Position numbers and translations under genes: made by a program | Notes under the pieces: model-generated | Database searches by the model: none | What the model was told of the DNA's origin: nothing | The model's input: the letters and a program-made list of their open reading frames with translations, nothing else | Source: Paludibacter sp. | GTDB lineage: Bacteria > Bacteroidota > Bacteroidia > Bacteroidales > Paludibacteraceae | Assembly (NCBI GenBank): GCA_024709185.1 | Contig: JANJXE010000010.1 | Span: forward strand, 1 to 15,487 | DNA: 15,487 nt | Direction: 5' to 3' | Shown here: piece by piece, positions 2,420 through 14,485 of the stretch | Position numbering within the stretch: the first letter of the stretch is position 1 | How the letters are laid out: every line of letters begins with the position of its first letter

Positions 2420-3451
2420 TTAATACCTGTTCTTATTTGCATACCTCACCAGCGCCAGCATCACCGGTACTTCCACCAGCACCCCCACCACGGTTACCAA
2501 AGTAGCTCCGGAATTCAATCCGAAAAGTACTATCGCCACCGCTACAGAGAGTTCAAAGAAATTACTGGCACCAATCAGCGAGGCCGGGGCAGCTATATCG
2601 TGTGGCAATTTCCACTTTTTAGCCCATTTATAAGCCACGAAAAAGATGAAGAAGGTCTGGATAATCAGCGGCACGGCAATCAGCAGAATGTTAAAAGGAT
2701 TTTGAAGAATTACATCGCCCTGGAAGGAGAAAATCAGTATCAGGGTGAGCAGCAAACCGCTGATGGTAATTCCGGTAAACTTCTTCAGGAAGTTGTTTTG
2801 AAAATAGTCCATCCCCTTTTTGTTAATTATAGCATTGCGGGTCATCACAGCTAATGCCAGCGGAATCACCACAAACAAAAGCACCGACATCAGTAAGGTA
2901 TTCCACGGAATGGCGATACCTGATACACCCAGCAATAAACTAACGATGGGCACAAAGGCGATGATGATGATTAAATCGTTGATGGCTACCTGCACTAAGG
3001 TGTAGGCCGGATTCCCTTTGGTGAGATGACTCCATACAAACACCATAGCCGTACAGGGAGCGGCGCCCAGCAGTACGGATCCGGCAAGGTATTCACGTGC
3101 CAGCTCTACGGGTATCAAGGCTTTGTAAATAATAAAGAAAAAGAGCCAGGCAATGCCAAACATAGTGAAAGGCTTTATCAACCAGTTGGTTACTAAGGTT
3201 ACGGTGAGGCCTTTCGGCATTTTTACGGCATCCACCACACTGCGGAAATCTATTTTCAGCATCATCGGGAATATCATAATCCAGATAAGCACCGCGATGG
3301 GAATCGATACATTTGCATACTCGAGTTTGCCCAGGGTTTCGGGTACGATGGGCAGCAGTTTGCCCACGGCAATTCCTGCTACAATACACAGTGCTACCCA
3401 AAGCGTCAGGTAGCGGTCGAAAAACGACATGTTGGCTGATTCTTTACTCAT
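2420..3451 (-). CDS. acr3: ACR3-family arsenite efflux permease
   Basis: A 343-residue inner membrane protein that exports As(III) as the last step of arsenic detoxification. It belongs to the ACR3 (BART superfamily) permeases, not the unrelated ArsB type, although genomes often label it arsB. Multiple hydrophobic segments fit the ten-helix family topology. The hallmark GAAPCTAMVFVWSHLTKG carries the conserved Cys (Cys133), and the ASNFFELSVA segment carries the conserved Glu (Glu300); both are needed for transport in characterised ACR3 proteins. Length is normal for the family. Its ATG overlaps the arsM stop as ATGA (3448-3451), so translation is probably coupled. It is the last gene of the operon; no convincing terminator hairpin follows it. 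Confidence 0.95.
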   Translation of the reverse strand: MSKESANMSFFDRYLTLWVALCIVAGIAVGKLLPIVPETLGKLEYANVSIPIAVLIWIMIFPMMLKIDFRSVVDAVKMPKGLTVTLVTNWLIKPFTMFGIAWLFFFIIYKALIPVELAREYLAGSVLLGAAPCTAMVFVWSHLTKGNPAYTLVQVAINDLIIIIAFVPIVSLLLGVSGIAIPWNTLLMSVLLFVVIPLALAVMTRNAIINKKGMDYFQNNFLKKFTGITISGLLLTLILIFSFQGDVILQNPFNILLIAVPLIIQTFFIFFVAYKWAKKWKLPHDIAAPASLIGASNFFELSVAVAIVLFGLNSGATLVTVVGVLVEVPVMLALVRYANKNRY

Positions 3452-4353
3452 TGTTTAGTTGCTGATAAGGTGATACTGAAAATCCCGGTTCCATTGCTGC
3501 CATACGCTTGTGCTTCCTCTTCCGAAAGGTAGTTTTGAAGCACATTTTCCGGAATTTGAATGGCTTTTTCTTTGTGAATACTAATATTAGTGAATCCTGC
3601 TTTGCGAACAATGGCCAGGTACTCTTCCCTGTCGAGTGCCCCTGATACGCAACCGGCATACATCGTGGCATCGTTTTTTAATCCTTCGGGAAGTTGGCCT
3701 GCAGTAACCACGTCGGAAATGCAAAAATGTCCTCCCCGGCGTAATACCCGATACATTTCGGCGAATGCTTTTTGTTTGTCGGGCACCAGGTTTAATACAC
3801 AATTGGAAAGAAGTACATCGAATTCATTTCCCTCAAAAGGCATCGATTCGATATCGCCCTGCACAAACTGCACATTGGTATAGCCAAGTTTCCGGTTGTT
3901 GGCCATTGCTTTTTCCACCATGGCGGGGGTAAAGTCCAGCCCGGTTACCGTGCCACTTTCGCCCACTATCTTTCGGGCCACAAAGCAATCGTTGCCGGCA
4001 CCGCTTCCCAAATCGAGCACGCTTTGACCGGTTTGGAGATTCGCAAATTGAGTAGGAATGCCGCATCCCAGTCCCAGGTCGGCATCTTTGAAGTGACCCT
4101 CCACGGCTGTGTATTCGTCGCCTATCATGCTTATTTCCAGTTCGCCGCAACAGCCTGTATCGCCACAGCAGCCGGTGGAGGTGCCTTCATTTGCACGGGC
4201 AATCTGACTGTATTTCTCCTGAACGATTAATTTCAGGTCTGTACGGTTGGATGTGTTATCTTTAGACTGTGACTCCTGGTAGCTCAGGCCGCTAAAGTTT
4301 TGCTTGGTTGGGTAGGTCTTTTCGACTTTACTGTTTAAATCAGTGCTGCTCAT
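3448..4353 (-). CDS. arsM: Arsenite S-adenosylmethionine methyltransferase ArsM
   Basis: A 301-residue cytoplasmic enzyme that methylates As(III) with SAM to methyl- and dimethylarsenicals, releasing S-adenosylhomocysteine. The class I SAM-binding motif is at 113-122 (LDLGSGAGND) with the acidic ribose contact near Asp140. The three cysteines expected for arsenite binding and catalysis are present: Cys97 (ADLGLGCGIP), Cys185 (LLSNCVLNLVPD) and Cys235 (YAGCVSGAL). A double-CC stretch, GCCGDTGCCGE, lies at 61-71, similar to that seen in many ArsM proteins. About 36 polar residues precede the usual ArsM start (KLIVQEKYSQIA); no other domain is visible in them. It sits between arsC and acr3 with ATGA overlaps at both ends. 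The divergent ahcY could remove its SAH by-product. Confidence 0.95.
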   Translation of the reverse strand: MSSTDLNSKVEKTYPTKQNFSGLSYQESQSKDNTSNRTDLKLIVQEKYSQIARANEGTSTGCCGDTGCCGELEISMIGDEYTAVEGHFKDADLGLGCGIPTQFANLQTGQSVLDLGSGAGNDCFVARKIVGESGTVTGLDFTPAMVEKAMANNRKLGYTNVQFVQGDIESMPFEGNEFDVLLSNCVLNLVPDKQKAFAEMYRVLRRGGHFCISDVVTAGQLPEGLKNDATMYAGCVSGALDREEYLAIVRKAGFTNISIHKEKAIQIPENVLQNYLSEEEAQAYGSNGTGIFSITLSATKQ

Positions 4354-4775
4354 AACTGTGGTTTTATATCATCTTCGTACAGTTTCCAAAAACAGGCTTT
4401 TATTTCATCGCGCACCCGGATAAATTCGCTGTGGATAAACTCTTCGGTTCCCACAGCATGACTCGGATCATCGAATCCAATGTGAAGGCGGTGTTTTACC
4501 TTTCCAAGAAAAGCCGGGCAGTTTTCGTTGGCTCCTCCGCAAACGGTAATCACATATTCCCATTCGTCGTTGAGGTATTTCTCTACCGAATCGGAGGTGT
4601 GGTGACTGATGTCGATCCCAATTTCGTTCATTACTTCCACCGCTTTTTGGTTGAGTCGTCCCGAAGCCTCGGTTCCGGCTGAACAAACGGTGATGCGACT
4701 GTCGAACGATTGCAGAAAGCCGTGGGCCATCTGACTGCGGCATGAATTGCCTGTGCAAAGAATAAGTACTTTCAT
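4350..4775 (-). CDS. arsC: Arsenate reductase, LMW protein-tyrosine-phosphatase type (thioredoxin-coupled)
   Basis: A 141-residue cytoplasmic enzyme that reduces arsenate to arsenite, the form exported by ACR3 and methylated by ArsM. The N-terminal CTGNSCRS (residues 7-14) is the CX5R phosphatase-like loop. Cys79 and Cys86 in the CGGANENC segment have the 7-residue spacing of the redox pair in the Staphylococcus pI258 enzyme (Cys82/Cys89), which indicates the thioredoxin-linked mechanism and not the glutaredoxin-linked one. The FDDPS segment near 100-104 supplies the usual Asp-Pro. Length is normal. It overlaps arsR upstream (4772-4775) and arsM downstream (4350-4353), each by ATGA. Confidence 0.95.
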   Translation of the reverse strand: MKVLILCTGNSCRSQMAHGFLQSFDSRITVCSAGTEASGRLNQKAVEVMNEIGIDISHHTSDSVEKYLNDEWEYVITVCGGANENCPAFLGKVKHRLHIGFDDPSHAVGTEEFIHSEFIRVRDEIKACFWKLYEDDIKPQL

Positions 4776-5098
4776 TTACAGTTGAATGTTTGATTATCAA
4801 TTTTACTAAAAAAAGCATCGAACAGAATTAATTTTTCATTTATAGTATCACCACAAAGGCAATAATTAATTTTTATTCCATCGATTTCGCCATGTATAAG
4901 TCCGGCATCGCGCAGTTCCTTCAGGTGTTGCGACACAGTTGTGCGACTCAGGGGCAACTGATCCGAAATATCACCTGAAATACAGGTCTTCGTTTCGGCT
5001 AAATATTTTAAAATAGCTAATCGTGCCGGATTGGAAATTACCCGTGCAAAATCGGCCAACTCCTGTAACTCTTTATCAAATACCTGCGGTTTTCTCAT
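4772..5098 (-). CDS. arsR: ArsR/SmtB-family repressor of the ars operon
   Basis: A 108-residue winged-helix repressor, expected to leave DNA when it binds As(III). The winged helix is clear: NPARLAILKYLAE at 23-35, recognition helix LSRTTVSQHLKELRDAGLIH at 50-69, then a short wing (GEIDGIKINYCL). The canonical ELCVCDL metal site of the third helix is absent: the equivalent region reads KTCISGDISD with a single Cys39. Other cysteines are Cys80 and Cys82 (YCLCGD) and Cys107 at the extreme C-terminus, so the sensing site is probably atypical. I chose the ATG at 5098. A longer reading frame opens with TTG at 5170, but it would run through the promoter and operator dyad. First gene of the operon. 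Confidence 0.92.
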   Translation of the reverse strand: MRKPQVFDKELQELADFARVISNPARLAILKYLAETKTCISGDISDQLPLSRTTVSQHLKELRDAGLIHGEIDGIKINYCLCGDTINEKLILFDAFFSKIDNQTFNCK

Positions 5099-5110
5099 GT
5101 TGCTATGTTT

Positions 5111-5149
5111 TATGTCGCAAACATACGACATATTTTTTAAATACACAAC
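5111..5149 (-). promoter_or_regulatory. ars operon promoter with dyad operator around the -7 box
   Basis: On the minus strand TATGTTTG (5125-5118) is an exact TAnnTTTG -7 box, and GTTG (5149-5146) stands in for the -33 TTTG with exactly 20 bases between. The -7 box fills the 8-base spacer of a perfect 7-bp inverted repeat, TATGTCG (5111-5117) and CGACATA (5126-5132). A repressor on this dyad would cover the -7 element, as expected for ArsR. The predicted transcript would start about 13 bases before the chosen arsR ATG. Confidence 0.7.
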
Positions 5150-5195
5150 ATATTGGTTAAACTTGCTCAATAAGCATAAAAATGCACACCGGGCT

Positions 5196-6811: not shown

Positions 6812-8035
6812 ATGAAAACAATTGTAACCCTTATCACTACTGCTATCCTGATGAGTTCCTGTGCCGGTTTTCTGACTTCCTGCACCGAACCCGATGTGAA
6901 ACCTGCCGGCGATATTCCCCTGAAGGTGGGGATGGAAAAGAAAGTAGCGCAGGACAATGATTTTTCGTTCGACCTGCTGCGGCAAACCATCGCTAAGAAC
7001 AGCAATGAACCCAATGTGTTTATTTCGCCATTGAGCATGAGCATCGCACTGGGTATGGTGCGCAATGGCGCTGCCGGTCTTACCCGTACCGAAATTGAAC
7101 AGGCCTTGCGACTCAGTGGAATGAGCGATGAGGAAATCAACGAATATTATAAAATAATGCGCGAGGGCTTGTTATCGATCGATCCGAAAACAAAGCTCAA
7201 CATTGCCAACTCCATCTGGTACCGTACCGGCTTTCCGGTGAAGGAAGATTTCCTCAACGTGAACCGCTCGTACTTTAATGCCGAAGTGAAACCGCTCGAT
7301 TTTGCGGCCCCGGGTGCTGTAGATATTATCAATTCCTGGTGCGCCAAAGCTACCAACGATCTCATCAAAAAGCCGCTCGACAAGATTTCAGCCGATGCGA
7401 TGCTGTACCTCATCAATGCCATCTATTTCAAAGGGATTTGGGCAAAACAATTCGATAAAAAGAAAACCTACGAAACCGATTTTGTGGCAGAAAATGGCAC
7501 CCGCACTAAGGTGGATATGATGCAGCAAAAAGATACCTTCCTGTATGCCGAGGACGATAAAGCCCAGTACCTCGATATGCCCTATGGCAACAAAGCTTTT
7601 TCGATGACCGTCATCCTGCCTAAAGACGGTCTGACTACCGGTCAGGTGCTCGAAGACCTCACCGCCGATGAGTTCGCACGTATTAATGCATCGCTTCGTA
7701 TGCAGGAAGTAAATGTGTTTTTTCCAAAATTCAAAATGGAAAATAAATACGAGATGAAAGACCCGATGATGGCGCTGGGAATGAAAACTGCCTTTACCGA
7801 TGAGGCCGACTTTTCACCTATCTCCGATATTGCGTTGATAATCTCCCGAATCATTCACAGTACTTTTGTGGAAGTGGATGAAGTGGGAACCGAAGCTGCT
7901 GCGGTTACCATCATCGAATTTGAAACCACCTCGTTGCCGGTTACACCTTTCTTTGTTGCCAACAAACCGTTCATTTTCCTGATCCGGGAAAAAAGCACAG
8001 GCGTGATTCTTTTTGTGGGAAAGAAAGGGAAGTGA
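6812..8035 (+). CDS. Serpin-family serine/cysteine protease inhibitor, predicted lipoprotein
   Basis: A 407-residue serpin. Serpins trap target proteases covalently after cleavage of an exposed reactive loop. The N-terminus is a lipoprotein signal with two possible lipobox cysteines, MSSC17 and LTSC24 (the second fits the consensus better), so the protein is likely membrane-anchored, in the periplasm or on the cell surface. The core runs from about 50 to 405: NVFISPLSMSIALGMVRNGA (68-87), LYLINAIYFKGIW (198-210), the TTFVEVDEVGTEAAAV-like breach/hinge region (hinge EVGTEAAA at 357-364) and a C-terminal NKPFIFLIREKSTGVILFVG. The small residues of the hinge are those of inhibitory serpins. Counting from the hinge by analogy with alpha-1-antitrypsin puts P1 near Thr373, but the loop is about two residues longer, so the cleavage site is uncertain. 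It stands alone after a terminator. Confidence 0.95.
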   Translation: MKTIVTLITTAILMSSCAGFLTSCTEPDVKPAGDIPLKVGMEKKVAQDNDFSFDLLRQTIAKNSNEPNVFISPLSMSIALGMVRNGAAGLTRTEIEQALRLSGMSDEEINEYYKIMREGLLSIDPKTKLNIANSIWYRTGFPVKEDFLNVNRSYFNAEVKPLDFAAPGAVDIINSWCAKATNDLIKKPLDKISADAMLYLINAIYFKGIWAKQFDKKKTYETDFVAENGTRTKVDMMQQKDTFLYAEDDKAQYLDMPYGNKAFSMTVILPKDGLTTGQVLEDLTADEFARINASLRMQEVNVFFPKFKMENKYEMKDPMMALGMKTAFTDEADFSPISDIALIISRIIHSTFVEVDEVGTEAAAVTIIEFETTSLPVTPFFVANKPFIFLIREKSTGVILFVGKKGK

Positions 8036-8132: not shown

Positions 8133-9023
8133 CTAAATCAATTTTTTTATCGTTGCAATAGTTTCTTTGGTTTCCTGTAGCTGGCCTATCAGCACCCAGT
8201 CGTGAAACATTTCAGGGTATTCAAAATAATCGAATGCGATTTGTTGTTCTTCCAGGATGTGCTTCAGTTTACGGGCATCGGCCACTAATAAGTCGTTGGT
8301 GCCGGTGAAGATGGATATCTTTCCGGGAAGCCGGAAGGAGCCGTAAAGAGGACTGACGCGGTAATCGGTAACGTCTGCCTCTCCGGCCCAGGCCTTTCCG
8401 GCAATTTTCAACCCATCGATGCTCAATATTTTGTCACGATGTTCGTAATGTGTCAGATCGGGGTTGGTCATGGATACATCCAGCCAGGGCGATAAAAGGA
8501 TGATGCGGGAGGGTTGTCGGATGCTTTCCATATACAGCTTTTGCGCATATCCCAAAGCTAGTCCGCTACCTGCCGAGTCGCCCATCAGCACAATGTCGGC
8601 AGTTGGGTAATCGGCGAGAAGCTGAGCATACACCTGATCCATAAATTGGTATGCGTCGATACAGCTCTTTTCGGGAGCCAGGGGGTAATCGGGGACGATA
8701 AAACGGGCTCCGGTGGACAGTGCGAGCTGCTCAATCAACCGCCAGTGCATGCGGGTGATGTTGGCATAGTAGGCTCCTCCGTGAAGAAAGAGAACAACAG
8801 GGGAAGAAAGTGCAGATTTTGGCGATAGCGTCCACACGTTTCTTGTAATTTCTACTACGGCACCTGTAAATCCTATTTCATGGGTCTGTATATCCAGCTT
8901 TCTGTACATTGATGCGGGAAGCGTGGCGGCTTCCTTGCTAAAGCTGTTGTTTACGATGTTTTTCTCCATCGCTTTTTTCATGCCCATTACTTCCAACGAA
9001 AACTGTATAATTGAAGGTCGCAT
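8133..9023 (-). CDS. Alpha/beta hydrolase of the hormone-sensitive-lipase type (esterase/deacetylase)
   Basis: A 296-residue cytoplasmic hydrolase that should cleave carboxyl esters of small or lipid-like substrates. The HSL oxyanion motif HGGAY is at 81-85, the nucleophile elbow GDSAG at 148-152 (Ser150), the acid in GTNDLLVADAR (Asp244, or Asp248), and the histidine in EMFHDW (His274). The PDYPLAPE stretch (111-118) is also typical of the HSL family. There is no signal peptide; about 40 variable residues form a cap before the first strand. The start lies three bases after the stop of the flavoprotein gene, so it is in the same operon and probably acts on the same compound, for example freeing an esterified alcohol. 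The substrate is not known. Confidence 0.92.
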   Translation of the reverse strand: MRPSIIQFSLEVMGMKKAMEKNIVNNSFSKEAATLPASMYRKLDIQTHEIGFTGAVVEITRNVWTLSPKSALSSPVVLFLHGGAYYANITRMHWRLIEQLALSTGARFIVPDYPLAPEKSCIDAYQFMDQVYAQLLADYPTADIVLMGDSAGSGLALGYAQKLYMESIRQPSRIILLSPWLDVSMTNPDLTHYEHRDKILSIDGLKIAGKAWAGEADVTDYRVSPLYGSFRLPGKISIFTGTNDLLVADARKLKHILEEQQIAFDYFEYPEMFHDWVLIGQLQETKETIATIKKLI

Positions 9024-9026
9024 GGT

Positions 9027-10640
9027 TTACTTATTTAGCTTGTTGAGTGCGCGGTCGGAGGCGAGCTTTCCGGTAACTATCGACATGGGAAAGCCGGATG
9101 GACTGTAGGTCCACTGTCCGGCCTGCCAAACCGAGGGCAGCGGGGTTACCACGGCATCGTTGACATGTAGCATTTGGGTGACTGCCGGCACAACAGGATT
9201 GGTAAATGCCCAGCCTGTGAGTGCCCCATGGGTGTTACCGGTGAGTTTTTCCATCGAAAGCGGCGACGATGAAAACCGTTTTATAATCTTGTCCTTGATT
9301 CCCGGAAAAATGGTTTCGTTCATGATCTCAATCGTCAGCACCTCTATAAACTCCTTCATTTCAGCCGTCCAACCATAGTTCTCGATTTGTTTTTCAAGAT
9401 GATAATCCAGGAAAAGGCTCACCTCAAGTCCCACTTTTCCTTCGGGAGCCAAATCAGGATCACGCAGGGCGGGAATGGCAATTTCGAAGGTGTTTAACCG
9501 GAAGTAATCGCGCAGGTAGTGTTTGACGCTGGCTTTCAGCTCTTGTAAGTCGGAGTCGGCCGTAGAACTTAAAAATGTTTCGATAAACTTTGTTGATACC
9601 GACGACAGCCCGCGCTTATCCGGTGTGAAAAAGAAATGACCGGTGCAGCGCTGTTCGAACCAGGAAGGAGATTCGTCCACAATCAGGTACACTGTAAACA
9701 CCGAATCACCACCAGTCAGTGGTTTCATTTCATCAATCTTTCCCTGAATTGTATTGGCTAAATTGATGTCTTTTACTTCTTTAAGCGGAATAATATTGTA
9801 CAGTTGCTTTAAATCGCAGGCCCATATCAACTCTTTGTACTCCGTTTCGATACCCCGGCTGTCGGTGATACGCAGGGTTTCCGGATTCAGCGATACCACT
9901 TTCACACCGGTATAAATTTCACCTCCTTTTTCAAGTATAAAATCGGTAATACGGCTGATTACCGTTCCAGTTCCGCCTTTAGGGTAGTGGTAGTCCAGGT
10001 AAAGACTGAAATAACTCAATGCAAAGGAGGTAGGCGTATGCTTAAAAAAGTGCTGAGCAATAATGTCCACCAGCGCCGGATTACTTGTAAGCCGGTGCAG
10101 GTACTGTTCAACGGGCTCGTACAATCGGTTGATGTTGCGCATGGTAAACAGAAACCGAAACAGCCAGGGCAACAGCTTTCCAAACAGGTATTTTTTATTA
10201 TTCGGAATATCCATCAGGGCCGGATTATCGATTCCATACAGCACATCCATATAGCCCATAATCTTCTTAATTTCACGGATGATTACGTCAATATCGGCCG
10301 CATTTTCCGGGAAATGGTTTTTCAGAAAAGAGGCATAGGTGGCGATACTTTTTTTATCGTTAATGCGAATTACTTCATCACCAATGCCCACCGAAACCGT
10401 CACTTGTTGAAATTCTATGTCGATACCAAGCTGCTTCAACATCGGAAATACGATTCCCGAATTTTCGATGGAGCGTAATCCGGAATCGAAATACACCCCG
10501 TCGCGCTGGAAGGTCTGCACCAGTCCGCCGGTTTTCGACTGCATCTCGAACAAAGCGACCTTTTTGCCGGCTTTGGCCAGGTAGGCTGCGGCTGTTAAAC
10601 CGGCAATGCCACCTCCCACTACTACTACATCGTATTTCAT
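9027..10640 (-). CDS. FAD-dependent oxidoreductase of the phytoene desaturase / carotenoid isomerase / retinol saturase family
   Basis: A 537-residue flavoprotein. The N-terminal dinucleotide fold is classic: VVVGGGIAGLTAAAYLAKAGKKVALFE (GxGxxG, with the Glu that binds FAD ribose), then GGLVQTFQRDGVYFDSG. The C-terminal FAD contact GQWTYSPSGFPMSIVTGKLA is also clear. Relatives desaturate, saturate or isomerise conjugated polyenes (CrtI, CrtISO, RetSat); I cannot tell which reaction this one performs. It matches residues ~322-846 of the upstream fusion protein along its whole length (MDVLYGI.NP, KLLPW, FALSYFSLYLDY.YPKGG), so the two are paralogues from a local duplication. ATG at 10640 was chosen over a TTG two codons upstream. 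It follows the fusion gene after about 83 bases, and the hydrolase follows immediately. Confidence 0.9.
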   Translation of the reverse strand: MKYDVVVVGGGIAGLTAAAYLAKAGKKVALFEMQSKTGGLVQTFQRDGVYFDSGLRSIENSGIVFPMLKQLGIDIEFQQVTVSVGIGDEVIRINDKKSIATYASFLKNHFPENAADIDVIIREIKKIMGYMDVLYGIDNPALMDIPNNKKYLFGKLLPWLFRFLFTMRNINRLYEPVEQYLHRLTSNPALVDIIAQHFFKHTPTSFALSYFSLYLDYHYPKGGTGTVISRITDFILEKGGEIYTGVKVVSLNPETLRITDSRGIETEYKELIWACDLKQLYNIIPLKEVKDINLANTIQGKIDEMKPLTGGDSVFTVYLIVDESPSWFEQRCTGHFFFTPDKRGLSSVSTKFIETFLSSTADSDLQELKASVKHYLRDYFRLNTFEIAIPALRDPDLAPEGKVGLEVSLFLDYHLEKQIENYGWTAEMKEFIEVLTIEIMNETIFPGIKDKIIKRFSSSPLSMEKLTGNTHGALTGWAFTNPVVPAVTQMLHVNDAVVTPLPSVWQAGQWTYSPSGFPMSIVTGKLASDRALNKLNK

Positions 10641-10723
10641 TTGCAAGGGTGTTTAGTTAAATCGTGGTATTCTCACCTAAATATGTCTCATGGTTTCGGG
10701 ATTTACATTCCCTGATCGTTTCC

Positions 10724-13264
10724 TCATTTTTGTTTCAAAATGGCATTGGCCGCCAGTTTGCCCGTGAGTATCGACATGGGCACGCCGGCCGGACTATACG
10801 CCCATTGACCCGCCTGATATACCGACGGGAAAGGAGTGAATACCGAACGGTCAGCAATTTTTATGTTGTTGATTACCGGCATATCGGTCGTAAACTCCCA
10901 TCCCACAATAGCGCCTTCGGAACTTCCGGTGCGGTTTTCGATGCTTAACGGCGAGAACGAGAACCGGTGGAGAATCTTTCCTTCCAGCATCGGGAACACC
11001 GATTGGGAGATTACCCGAATGATTTCTTCCTCCATGAAGGGAATTAATTCGCCCAGCCATCCTGCTTCCTGTACTTTTTTAAATAAGGAATGTTCGGCCA
11101 GGAAGCTGATAATCATTCCGGTTTTGCCTTCAGGCGCCAGGGCTTTGTCGCGTAAGGCCGGAATGGAAATTTCGAAGGTGTTGAGGCCGATGAATCGTTT
11201 TGCCCATTCGAGAACTTCCTGTTTATCCCCGAAACGACTCATCAGCTCATCAAACTCTTTGCGGTGTGTTTCGCCCAAGCCCTGTCGCGACGGGGTGTAG
11301 AAGAAGTGCCCGTTCGCAATTTTGCCAAAACTTTCCACCGGCTCATCCACCTGCAGGTAAAGGGTAAACACCGACTCGCCACCTTTGTTACGTAGCACTT
11401 TCGACCTCACAGCCTCCATGCCTGTACGTAGTCCGGGCTCGAGATTTTCGGTTTCCGAAATGCGGTACAGGGTTTTTAAATCGCCTGCCCACACCAGGTT
11501 CTTGTAGCTGTATTCCACGCCCTTATCATCCACAATACGCTTAGCGCCGGGAATGACCCTCGTCACCGTGGTGCGGTTTTTAATGGTCCCCCCCAGCTCC
11601 CTGATTCTTGCGCCCAGGGCTTCCGACAAACGCCCAACGCCTCCTTTGGGATAAAAATAATCGAGGTAGAGCGAGAAATAACTCAGTGCAAAGAAGGTGG
11701 GTGTATTCCGGAAAAAATGCTGCGAGATAATATCGCGGAGCGAAGGATTACTAACCACCGAAGTAAGGTATTCCTCCACAGGCAGCTGCATCTTGTTTAT
11801 TTTACCAACCGTCATTATAAAGCGCGGCATCCACGGAAGGAGTTTTTTGAAGATATACGCGGTGTCGCGTTTCAGGTCTTTAAACACTGGGTTTTCAATC
11901 CCATAAAGCACATCCATGTGATCCATGATTTTGCGGATGGTCTTTATCACTTCATCAATTTCGCTGGAATTTTCGGGATAGAATTTCTTCAGCATGTCAC
12001 TGTAGGCATCTAAACTTTCTACCGTTGAGAGGCTCAGGATTTCATTTTCCACCCCCAGCGATACCGGACTACGCACCGATTCGAGTTCGATGTTCAAATC
12101 CTGTAACATGGGAAGAATAATACCCGCATCCTCGAGTGCCCGCACGCCGGCATCGAAATGAAAACCATTGCGCACAAAAGTATTGACCAACCCACCCAGC
12201 TCTCGGTTTTTCTCGATTAGCAACACTTTGTGACCTTCTCTGGCCAGAAAAGCTGCAGCAGTCAGGCCAGCTGCTCCGGCACCCACTACAATATGGTCGT
12301 AAGCATTTTCGCCCCCGGGCAATCCTGTTATTTTCAATGTTTCATTCCACAAGGCAGAGGCCACTTCCCGATCCAGTGCCGGAGGAGCCGGCTCTTCAAG
12401 AGTCGTTAGATTGAAAAACTTCCCACTCACACCGGCAATTTCCTTCGATACGCCCAGGTAATACAGCGCCCCGGCCGAAATAGATGCCGGCTTTAGCGTC
12501 TTATCGAAGAAAGTACGTTTGAACCAGCGGTACAGCGGCCCGTTTTCCTGTCCTGTTTCCGATTTTACAGCGCCCGGATGCATGGTATTTATCGTCACCC
12601 CTGTATTCCGGAACTGTTCCTCGAACACCAGCATCGACAGCAGCTGCGCCAGTTTAGCCGAACCATAGCTTCCCAGTCCCGAGTAAGACCGTTTCGCCCA
12701 GTTTAAATCGTCAAGGCGCAATCCCCAGGCTGCAAAGCGATGTCCTTCCGAACCCACCATAATAATTCGTGCCTCTTTCTGCGCTTTCAACTTATCCATC
12801 AGCAGGAAATTGATGATAAACGACGAAAGATAGTGCACCGCAAACACCTTTTCAAAACCATCGGGGGTGAGTTCGCGCCGGGTCATGTACACACCGGCAT
12901 TGTGAATCAGAATGTCGATGGAAGTTTCCAGTTGAACCAATTCCCCTGCCACCCTGAATGTATCGTCCATCCGGCTTAAGTCGGCGATAAGGTAGTCGCA
13001 GCGCACCCCGAATTCAGTTTCAATTTCCTTTTTCAACCGTTCCGATTTTTCAGGATTGCGGTTGATACAAACTAAACTGGCACCGTTAGAAGCATAATAG
13101 CGGGCCGTATCGTACCCAATACCAGAAGTAGCACCCGTGATAACCACCAGTTTGCCGGTACAGGAGTCGGTGCACAATTCCGGTTTCCGTTGGTTGTTGC
13201 GGATCATAGCAAACACATTGGACCAACGGTATTGACGAATATATTGAAGAGTTTTTAATTTCAT
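10724..13264 (-). CDS. Fusion of a retinol-dehydrogenase-like SDR with a retinol-saturase/CrtISO-like flavoprotein
   Basis: An 846-residue two-enzyme protein. Residues ~36-315 are a short-chain dehydrogenase of the retinol dehydrogenase/protochlorophyllide reductase-like type: TGATSGIG (43-50) for NAD(P), ADLS with Asp95, HNAG (121-124), Ser172 and the catalytic YGSAK (Tyr200, Lys204). The tetrad asparagine position (usually VNHL or VNYL) reads VHYL, giving His144. Residues ~322-846 are a complete FAD oxidoreductase: VGAGAAGLTAAAFLAREGHK (327-346), Glu351, GGLVNTF, and the C-terminal GQWAYSPAGVPMSILTGKLA. The first 30 residues are basic and aromatic and might touch membrane, but there is no signal peptide. 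An SDR that interconverts an alcohol and carbonyl next to a polyene reductase or isomerase suggests two steps on one lipid. The frame is unbroken through the linker, so this is a genuine fusion and not two genes. Confidence 0.93.
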   Translation of the reverse strand: MKLKTLQYIRQYRWSNVFAMIRNNQRKPELCTDSCTGKLVVITGATSGIGYDTARYYASNGASLVCINRNPEKSERLKKEIETEFGVRCDYLIADLSRMDDTFRVAGELVQLETSIDILIHNAGVYMTRRELTPDGFEKVFAVHYLSSFIINFLLMDKLKAQKEARIIMVGSEGHRFAAWGLRLDDLNWAKRSYSGLGSYGSAKLAQLLSMLVFEEQFRNTGVTINTMHPGAVKSETGQENGPLYRWFKRTFFDKTLKPASISAGALYYLGVSKEIAGVSGKFFNLTTLEEPAPPALDREVASALWNETLKITGLPGGENAYDHIVVGAGAAGLTAAAFLAREGHKVLLIEKNRELGGLVNTFVRNGFHFDAGVRALEDAGIILPMLQDLNIELESVRSPVSLGVENEILSLSTVESLDAYSDMLKKFYPENSSEIDEVIKTIRKIMDHMDVLYGIENPVFKDLKRDTAYIFKKLLPWMPRFIMTVGKINKMQLPVEEYLTSVVSNPSLRDIISQHFFRNTPTFFALSYFSLYLDYFYPKGGVGRLSEALGARIRELGGTIKNRTTVTRVIPGAKRIVDDKGVEYSYKNLVWAGDLKTLYRISETENLEPGLRTGMEAVRSKVLRNKGGESVFTLYLQVDEPVESFGKIANGHFFYTPSRQGLGETHRKEFDELMSRFGDKQEVLEWAKRFIGLNTFEISIPALRDKALAPEGKTGMIISFLAEHSLFKKVQEAGWLGELIPFMEEEIIRVISQSVFPMLEGKILHRFSFSPLSIENRTGSSEGAIVGWEFTTDMPVINNIKIADRSVFTPFPSVYQAGQWAYSPAGVPMSILTGKLAANAILKQK

Positions 13265-13326: not shown

Positions 13327-13374
13327 GGTTCGAACCATGGCATCAAAAGTAAATCAAACGATACATCACCCAAA
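13327..13374 (-). promoter_or_regulatory. Internal promoter before the SDR-flavoprotein fusion, with palindrome at the predicted start
   Basis: On the minus strand TTTG (13374-13371), 19 bases, then TACTTTTG (13351-13344) is an excellent match to the Bacteroidetes -33/-7 promoter. It starts at the 3' end of the SnoaL-like gene and gives the fusion gene a leader of about 70 bases. A perfect 10-bp palindrome GGTTCGAACC (13327-13336) lies just downstream, about where transcription should begin, and could be an operator. Confidence 0.6.
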
Positions 13375-13839
13375 CTTCCGCACTAAAAACCGCCGGTACA
13401 TCTTACCAAATTTCGGAATATTATTAAAAATATCGCCCCACAAATCGTAGTAGTCGCGCTGCTCTTTTATCAAGCCGTCGTCGCTGAGCACCAGCTTGGT
13501 AGCGCCATACATGGGCGTATTCGGATATTTCTTAAACATCATGGTCATCACCCAGTCGAACAAAATCACATTTTCGTTTTGCGAGATCGCCAGAATTTCC
13601 ATTTGAAGCTGAGTAGTGCGCTGTGTCAGCCGGTTACACATTTCCACGAAATTGTCGATTCCCTCGATGCGCTGGATGGTATCCTGAAACACAATATCGG
13701 GGTGGTAATATTTAAAAATATGCGACCAGTCGGGTTTCCCTTCGCGGTTGTAGGTTTGCGACCACAGCTCCTGGATAGTATCCACGTTCAGGGGCAGGCG
13801 ATCGGCAGGAGTGTTTAAAGCGTTTTCAGAAGTATTCAT
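13366..13839 (-). CDS. NTF2/SnoaL-like (ketosteroid-isomerase fold) protein
   Basis: A 157-residue cytoplasmic protein of the NTF2-like superfamily, a cone-shaped fold used by delta-5-3-ketosteroid isomerase, polyketide cyclases and many small-ligand binding proteins. Family features: an N-terminal helix with WSHIFKYYHPDIVFQD (about 38-53), IEGIDNFVEMCNRL (58-71), the WVMTMMF strand, and the C-terminal IKEQRDYYDLWGDIFNNIP, a conserved pattern in this subgroup. No function is proven for the subgroup. It overlaps the DUF2141 gene by ATGA (13836-13839), so the two are coupled, and it is followed 101 bases later by the SDR-flavoprotein fusion, which has its own promoter. An isomerase or lipid-carrier role in the same pathway is inference. 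Confidence 0.85.
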   Translation of the reverse strand: MNTSENALNTPADRLPLNVDTIQELWSQTYNREGKPDWSHIFKYYHPDIVFQDTIQRIEGIDNFVEMCNRLTQRTTQLQMEILAISQNENVILFDWVMTMMFKKYPNTPMYGATKLVLSDDGLIKEQRDYYDLWGDIFNNIPKFGKMYRRFLVRKFG

Positions 13840-14252
13840 TTGGAGAATAAATAGATGGTTTTACAATTGATGACAGTTGATTCGGTTAGTTCAAAGAGCA
13901 TGCGTTTGAGTGTTGGGGGGCCTTTCAGGAGACTCGGATTATTGGAATAGCCAAAACCCTCGTTGGGAATTCCCAACCAATTAGTATCCAGTTTCTTATT
14001 GTTGTTTTCGTCGTGAATAAACTGAAAGGCATATTTCCCGGGCTGAAGCTTATCGAAAACCATGAAGCATTTATTATCCACAATGGTACGGCTTGCCGCA
14101 GCAACCGGTTGGTCCTTATCGTTGCGAAGTTCGCCATGAACAGTACCTCTGCAATTACGCAGGTTCGAAATTTCAACACTCAGCGCCAGCTGTGCCATCA
14201 ACCCAATAGGAAGAAGAGAAAAAACAAGTGTCAAAGCAACTTTCTGCATCAT
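13836..14252 (-). CDS. DUF2141 family exported protein
   Basis: A 138-residue protein with a signal peptide (MMQKVALTLVFSLLPIGLMAQ) and a single DUF2141 domain: GTVHGELRND, then FDKLQPGKYAFQFIHDENNN, then LDTNWLGIPNEGFGYSNN. These are the hallmarks of this small beta-sandwich family, which is exported and has no established function. I chose the ATG at 14252 (a second ATG follows at 14249). The frame remains open upstream to a TTG at 14312, but that would put about 20 aromatic residues before the signal peptide and overlap a possible promoter box. First gene of the minus-strand cluster; its stop overlaps the SnoaL-like start. Confidence 0.88.
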   Translation of the reverse strand: MMQKVALTLVFSLLPIGLMAQLALSVEISNLRNCRGTVHGELRNDKDQPVAAASRTIVDNKCFMVFDKLQPGKYAFQFIHDENNNKKLDTNWLGIPNEGFGYSNNPSLLKGPPTLKRMLFELTESTVINCKTIYLFSK

Positions 14253-14282
14253 TTGAACGAACTTAGTATAAAAATAAAAGTG

Positions 14283-14317
14283 CAAAATACAATAGATTTT
14301 GAAAAAGTCCAAAAATA
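14283..14317 (-). promoter_or_regulatory. Candidate promoter for the DUF2141 gene
   Basis: Two readings are possible. TTTG (14313-14310) and TATTTTG (14289-14283, one base short of TAnnTTTG) are 20 bases apart and would start the transcript about 25 bases before the ATG. Alternatively TATTTTTG (14317-14310) is itself a -7 box whose -33 region would lie inside the repeat arm. Confidence 0.4.
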
Positions 14318-14333
14318 CAACTAATATTTAAGA

Positions 14334-14485
14334 TAATGTTTAATGTTTAATTATTAATGATTAATGGGTGCAGTTGAGAGGTGATATGCTTTTAAAGAGA
14401 CTTGTATCGTCACTAAACTCATTTAAGAGTATATCGCATGTACAATACCACCCATTAATCATTAATTATTAACCATTAATCATTA
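14334..14485. repeat. 152-bp hairpin-forming intergenic element (MITE- or REP-like)
   Basis: Two 37-base arms at 14334-14370 and 14449-14485 are inverted copies with three mismatches; the best block is ATTAATGATTAATGGGTG and its complement. Complementarity continues inward in the 78-base centre (GATAT and CTTTTAAA/CTCTTAAA blocks), so the whole element could fold into one long hairpin. The arms are built from TTAATG-like units. No open reading frame and no obvious target-site duplication was seen. It lies between the divergent DUF2141 and lepA genes. Confidence 0.8.

Follow-up and report, generated by a model that had tools for sequence, protein, structure and literature searches.

In Rhodobacter and Rhodopseudomonas furan fatty acids are made on phospholipid acyl chains by UfaD, UfaO (DUF1365) and UfaM, and UfaD resembles phytoene dehydrogenases (PMC7380195, in part). 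The R. sphaeroides operon RSP_1087-1091 includes an SDR (excerpt of PMC7074977) and VC1122 is named as a CFA synthase (excerpt of PMC5241685). A related logic is seen in the dolichol detour of DHRSX and SRD5A3, in which the aldehyde formed by an SDR is saturated by another enzyme at the adjacent double bond and is then reduced back by the SDR (PMC11607601, in part). Amongst carotenoid genes, DUF2141 adjoins crtG in many Sphingomonadales (PMC5989583, in part). Here we describe a locus on a 15,487-nucleotide stretch of a Paludibacter sp. genome (contig JANJXE010000010.1, the whole of which stretch we call the window), where an SDR is fused to a flavoprotein of the CrtI superfamily. Six functions are carried by five genes on the same strand, in the order DUF2141, NTF2-like, SDR and first flavoprotein (FAD1), followed here by a second flavoprotein (FAD2) and an esterase (EST):

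13836-14312, minus strand, DUF2141 protein (PF09912, E 2e-25)
13366-13839, minus strand, NTF2-like protein, SnoaL_2 / DUF2358 (PF12680, E 1.1e-8; PF10184, E 1.3e-8)
10724-13264, minus strand, SDR-flavoprotein fusion, 846 aa in a single frame
12317-13264, minus strand, SDR half of the fusion, residues 1-316, including a conserved extension of some 30 residues at the N-terminus
12305-12325, minus strand, linker LPGGENA, residues 314-320
10727-12304, minus strand, flavoprotein half (FAD1), residues 321-846
9027-10646, minus strand, FAD2, of the same superfamily (PF01593, E 8.2e-20)
8133-9023, minus strand, EST, alpha/beta hydrolase of hormone-sensitive-lipase type (PF07859, E 2.3e-34)

The NTF2-like gene overlaps the DUF2141 stop by 4 bases and EST, which scores below the cut-off of the NCBIfam HSL models, begins 3 bases past FAD2. 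Judged by eye, the ATG at 14252 is a likelier start for the DUF2141 protein than the TTG at 14312, and the ATG at 10640 is the likely start of FAD2. The DUF2141 protein has a hydrophobic stretch at its N-terminus (maximum KD 2.04) and is probably exported, as judged from sequence. FAD2 is 46% identical to FAD1 and the two fall in separate clades (support 100).

Several other features of the window lie around these genes. Between DUF2141 and lepA (14334-14485) there is an imperfect inverted repeat with 37-nt arms, 92% complementary, and a 78-nt spacer. It has 87 matches in the same genome, many of the places being matched on both strands, and at about 20 distinct places the match spans 130 or more of 161 bases, which suggests a MITE- or REP-like intergenic element. 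A serpin (6812-8035; PF00079, E 1.9e-112) has an N-terminus that by eye resembles a lipoprotein signal. An arsenic operon (2420-5170, minus strand) encodes an ACR3 efflux protein, an arsenite methyltransferase and an ArsR/SmtB-type regulator, all over cut-off, and an ArsC-like reductase below it. A SusR-family regulator (612-2261; 601.5 bits against a cut-off of 480) is next to a SusC/RagA-type protein of which only the beginning (3-461) is in the window, the rest running off it.

The fusion gene is read from an ATG at 13264 through 846 uninterrupted codons to a stop at 10724-10726, exactly the frame given in the original prediction. Pfam places adh_short at residues 38-173 (E 7.6e-31), Amino_oxidase at residues 332-643 (E 2.2e-17) and NAD_binding_8, corresponding to the Rossmann FAD region, at residues 326-379. 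All of the classical SDR motifs are present (TGATSGIG, HNAG, VGSEG and YGSAK, containing the expected TGxxxGxG, NAG, Ser and YxxxK). Among 18 fusion rows only P0011, which has SG there, and L051 miss the TG pattern, while P0010 misses the serine pattern because the next residue differs. As the linker contains no Met, no start codon for the flavoprotein remains there. The structure of the fusion was predicted with a mean pLDDT of 77.4 and a pTM of 0.58, values at which the relative placement of the two domains is not fixed by the model. A fold search with the whole model (VIA-align) listed mostly SDRs, and other families may sit outside the listing; the nearest solved folds among the matches listed are, by their entry titles, the gamma-carotenoid desaturase 4rep and LPOR with NADPH, Pchlide and membrane, enzymes that act on large hydrophobic substrates. 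The maximum KD value in the fusion is 1.44, with no stretch typical of a membrane helix, so that contact with the membrane is proposed from relatives. The protein is an SDR joined to a CrtI-superfamily flavoprotein and would be a bifunctional enzyme.

It had been predicted that two complete enzymes share this frame, and the comparisons agree with this. The best 120 separate SDRs listed, of 312-343 aa, are 72-79% identical to the SDR half in alignments covering 98-100% of it, and the flavoprotein half is 66-78% identical to separate flavoproteins of 528-549 aa (107 non-fused of 120 listed), so that each half looks complete. The other 13 of those 120 relatives are full-length fusions of 846-868 aa, at 61-95% identity, so the architecture recurs; one of these clusters, P0001 (95% identical), comprises 11 member sequences, with 3 contigs and two sources represented. 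An assembly error joining two genes is ruled out by these 13 further clusters and by the interleaving of fused and separate clades. Both the length and the sequence of the linker vary among the fusions. Full-text searching of one open-licence library, at the level of its listings, found no papers on the fusion itself.

To count how often the fused state has changed we used trees of each half, both of them quick searches without bootstrap. The flavoprotein tree has 103 rows, 18 of them fused and two of these identical there, and requires six changes of the fused state; branches with SH-aLRT values of 95 or higher force all six. The fused groups on it are the window with P0001-P0003; P0004, P0011 and L051; P0005, L045 and L050; P0006; P0008 and P0009; and P0007, P0010, P0012, P0013 and L048. 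The SDR tree (97 rows) likewise gives six changes, four of them forced. A topology with all fused rows in a single clade is rejected (p-AU 1.1e-122) on 99 rows, four long-branch flavoprotein rows having been left out; the group tested was defined by fusion, but the first tree was already known by then. The changes may be fusions or fissions; from the sequences, it appears that the joining of SDR and flavoprotein happened several times separately. The fused form L051 is in a Cloacimonetes bin, and the contigs of L046 and L048 are binned as Halobacteroidaceae (Bacillota), either because the gene was transferred laterally or because these bins are wrong.

When species genomes were scanned with the SDR alignment, 62 loci were returned. 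Of these, 58 are close (L012-L069), while four with distant SDRs (L070-L073, 23-27% identity) were excluded from the operon counts. At 41 of the 58 the SDR and flavoprotein are separate neighbouring genes, -40 to +130 bases apart when the first start codon is taken as the start (a pair was counted when a flavoprotein frame of 400-600 aa lay -120 to +200 bases from the SDR). Four loci carry complete fusions (L045, L048, L050 and L051) and a fifth, L046, is a fusion cut by a contig end. L015, L042 and L054 are also cut by contig ends, the FAD2 frame of L058 is broken, the flavoprotein is on the opposite strand in L044 and L056, and six loci (L021, L026, L033, L059, L065 and L067) have no flavoprotein beside the SDR. 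With the window included, the NTF2 family is found in 48 of 59 loci and the DUF2141 family in 26. EST follows FAD2 in L012, L013, L016, L017, L024 and L035, but not in L014. In the flanks, which extended up to 8 kb and were in many cases shortened by contig ends, only the operon families occur in more than 6 of the 59 loci and no further conserved partner gene was found; a family of 228 aa reaches 6. L066 is the sole locus to show a lipocalin gene (L066:6285-6821; PF08212, E 2.4e-50), directly before DUF2141, and it also has two divergent flavoproteins in a row.

The two enzymes also occur together at the level of the genome. In a sample of 393 genomes from the order, 20 have the SDR and 19 the flavoprotein, and each of these 19 also has the SDR (E <=1e-60); in the twentieth, G558, only 216 bases separate the SDR from the end of its contig. 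Within the family the fusion is matched (E 1e-60) in only 2 of 150 genomes sampled, the window's own and G130, which is of the same genus, showing that the operon is patchy. In L031 and L058 it is FAD2 that directly follows the SDR, and in four genomes (L096-L099) a second type of SDR, 43-46% identical to that of the window, is paired with FAD2, indicating that the module has been shuffled. Despite the shuffling, coupling of the SDR to a flavoprotein of FAD1 or FAD2 type is the rule. The lineages involved are Bacteroidales, Cloacimonadota, Spirochaetes and others, bacteria of mostly oxygen-poor places.

The joining could nevertheless be without functional meaning, as close co-oriented genes will occasionally fuse through loss of a stop codon. 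The short gaps at the 41 separate pairs would allow this, and in one fused clade (P0005, L045 and L050) what appears to be the old start Met is kept in the linker. However, FAD1 and FAD2 are also close, yet the 120 FAD2 relatives listed, the window's own included, are all of 577 aa or less and none is a fusion, and both halves have been kept in SDR fusions down to 61% identity. We consider this explanation unlikely. That the two halves act together, as had been argued from the fusion, is upheld by the neighbouring genes, the co-occurrence and the alternation of fused and separate forms; the channelling of an intermediate that was argued alongside it is a supposition. Repeated joining marks the SDR and flavoprotein as a pair that would act together in an operon which, as far as we have searched, has no assigned function.

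The fusion, the family and predicted fold of both halves, the gene order, the co-occurrence and the alternation are established. The reading that best accounts for them, to which we would give an even chance of being right, is a bifunctional membrane-associated redox enzyme acting on one long hydrophobic alcohol or carbonyl within a lipid-modifying operon. The N-terminal SDR would interconvert alcohol and carbonyl with NAD(P)(H) and the flavoprotein half would add or remove hydrogen at a carbon-carbon double bond. Both would share a single long hydrophobic molecule, either an isoprenoid or an acyl chain, and the pair would form one step of a compact operon that is probably lipid-modifying. Within it, the NTF2-like protein may isomerise or hold an intermediate, the esterase may free an ester and the DUF2141 protein may act outside the cytoplasm. 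Cultured carriers of the operon exist (L013, L047 and L055), Perlabentimonas gracilis, Carboxylicivirga marina and Puteibacter caeruleilacunae being cultured examples, and could lead to a new membrane lipid or its precursor.

One alternative is that the operon tailors the bacterium's own carotenoid after CrtB and CrtI, for instance through a late desaturation or saturation, or by oxidising an end group. On another contig, the window's genome has a carotenoid cluster (L079, contig C431 of genome G000) with a PF00494 synthase, an IPP isomerase over cut-off, an acyltransferase, a glycosyltransferase, a CruF-like Caroten_synth protein (PF04240; CruF model below cut-off) and a true CrtI (360.8 bits against a cut-off of 238.1); our guess would be that it makes a glycosylated and acylated carotenoid. 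The possibility that FAD1 is the genome's own phytoene desaturase is ruled out by this CrtI, and with it the CrtI role is already taken. Any match to PF00494 is found in 15 of 20 SDR-positive genomes against 107 of 373 others (p 4.2e-5), and a strong match (E <1e-30) in 13 of 20 against 91 of 373 (p 2.3e-4); these counts were made by hand, both tests ignore kinship and the strong cut-off was picked after the list was known. All seven of the two-flavoprotein loci fetched (L012, L013, L014, L016, L017, L024 and L035) are in PF00494-positive genomes, and the adjacency of DUF2141 and crtG in Sphingomonadales, in the part of PMC5989583 cited above, points the same way. On the other hand, PF00494 has no match in 25 of the 49 operon genomes searched, that of Puteibacter among them. 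In the order sample G413, G489, G492 and G507 (97-99% complete, the last a single contig) have the SDR and flavoprotein and no PF00494, FAD2 occurs with no match in the genome of L031 and in G292 and with only a weak one in the genome of L058 and in G506, and in the window's own genome the operon and the carotenoid cluster are on different contigs. Carotenoid tailoring is, in our view, rather improbable.

Comparison of FAD1 with the curated models bore out the superfamily that had been predicted for it and placed it in none of the CrtI, CrtISO and CrtD families. It scores 88.6 bits against CrtI (TIGR02734, cut-off 238.1), 59.9 against CrtISO (TIGR02730, cut-off 586.9) and 62.5, 50.4 and 43.9 against CrtD (TIGR02733, NF045637 and NF042421; cut-offs 549.7, 580 and 500), and none of the CrtI, CrtD, CrtISO and CrtO models in the list of 25 gives it a score that reaches the curated cut-off.

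A parallel from outside these lineages came from the NTF2-like protein. In a tblastn search of plasmids (E <=0.01) it matched 10 records, all gammaproteobacterial and all within a phrB-NTF2-SDR-flavoprotein cluster with DUF1365 and/or a CFA-like synthase. The cluster was called from annotation in seven and from our own ORF search in three; H12 has no gene listed in the DUF1365 slot and the stretch of H11 ends before a possible CFA gene. The NTF2-like proteins of window and cluster are related: hhalign gives 99.0% over 129 columns, and blastp finds 24-29% identity in 7 of 7 sequences (E 3e-19 to 1e-9). The SDRs reach 99.4% in hhalign, a score that has to be read in the light of SDR profiles generally matching each other. 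The cluster flavoprotein, taken as UfaD-like by its position beside DUF1365 and the CFA synthase, aligns with FAD1 over only 79 columns, as against 464 for FAD1 with CrtI, and its subfamily is not that of FAD1 and FAD2. When FAD1 itself was searched against plasmids (E 1e-5) it gave only two matches, both about 25% identical, the better of them amid acyl-carrier-protein and ketosynthase genes and the other amid amino-acid-type genes.

The window could hold a counterpart of the furan-fatty-acid or singlet-oxygen module minus its oxygen-dependent step, with NTF2, SDR and flavoprotein acting on phospholipid acyl chains. This would fit the shared gene order, the homologous NTF2-like protein and SDR, and the SDR of the R. 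sphaeroides operon in the excerpt of PMC7074977. The difference in flavoprotein subfamily and the caution attached to the SDR score argue against it, as does DUF1365 (UfaO, PF07103), which was matched in 0 of 32 operon genomes with a positive control in Caulobacter vibrioides, the window's genome being 82.65% complete. The furan-fatty-acid pathway proper is ruled out by the same DUF1365 result and flavoprotein subfamily, and we regard the counterpart as distinctly unlikely. We infer that a shared NTF2-SDR core has been coupled to different flavoproteins, which would point to lipids in both cases. Together with the lipocalin of L066 and the acyl-carrier-protein and ketosynthase genes beside the FAD1 plasmid match, these NTF2 matches provide the lipid context in which we place the operon.

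Within the lipid-modifying reading, a more specific proposal is that an allylic polyisoprenoid alcohol takes a detour in these bacteria. The SDR would oxidise the alcohol to the aldehyde, the flavoprotein, helped by the NTF2-like protein in the role of an isomerase or a carrier, would saturate the conjugated double bond and the SDR would return the product to an alcohol. The outcome would be a dolichol- or dihydropolyprenol-like lipid, made by an enzyme pair unrelated to SRD5A3. We see only a slim chance that this is correct.

A retinol dehydrogenase and retinol saturase acting in retinoid or apocarotenoid metabolism seem highly improbable. In their favour stand the labels 'retinol dehydrogenase 13' on several SDR relatives and 'all-trans-retinol 13,14-reductase' on one flavoprotein (P0120), which are source labels only. 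Against them, the lineages carrying the operon are mostly known as anaerobes whereas formation of retinal by carotenoid cleavage needs O2, and a BCD-type retinal-forming enzyme was matched in 0 of 32 genomes, in a search whose own control was also silent. The identification of the two halves with these enzymes in the original prediction is not supported, the near neighbours being named 'phytoene dehydrogenase-like', and 'retinol dehydrogenase' or 'retinol reductase' labels on the operon genes should be treated with caution, as we met no supporting test.

Compared with the known systems, the flavoprotein of our preferred membrane-associated redox enzyme stands apart from the CrtI-type desaturases such as 4rep, being about 20% identical to the CrtI of its own genome, which is a separate gene. 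It shares its broad superfamily with CrtISO, from which its score keeps it far removed, and presumably also with RetSat. The SDR resembles the classical RDH/LPOR-like SDRs (the PRK06197 group, 3rd5 and LPOR), but it is below the NF004846 cut-off of 268, has the conserved N-terminal extension and is fused to a flavoprotein. With the DHRSX/SRD5A3 detour the likeness is in logic only; the saturating enzyme there is of steroid-5-alpha-reductase type and not a flavoprotein. The gammaproteobacterial phrB-NTF2-SDR-flavoprotein-DUF1365-CFA cluster, which resembles the UfaD/UfaO/UfaM type, shares NTF2 homology and the order NTF2-SDR-flavoprotein with the window, while the window operon has no DUF1365, CFA synthase or photolyase.
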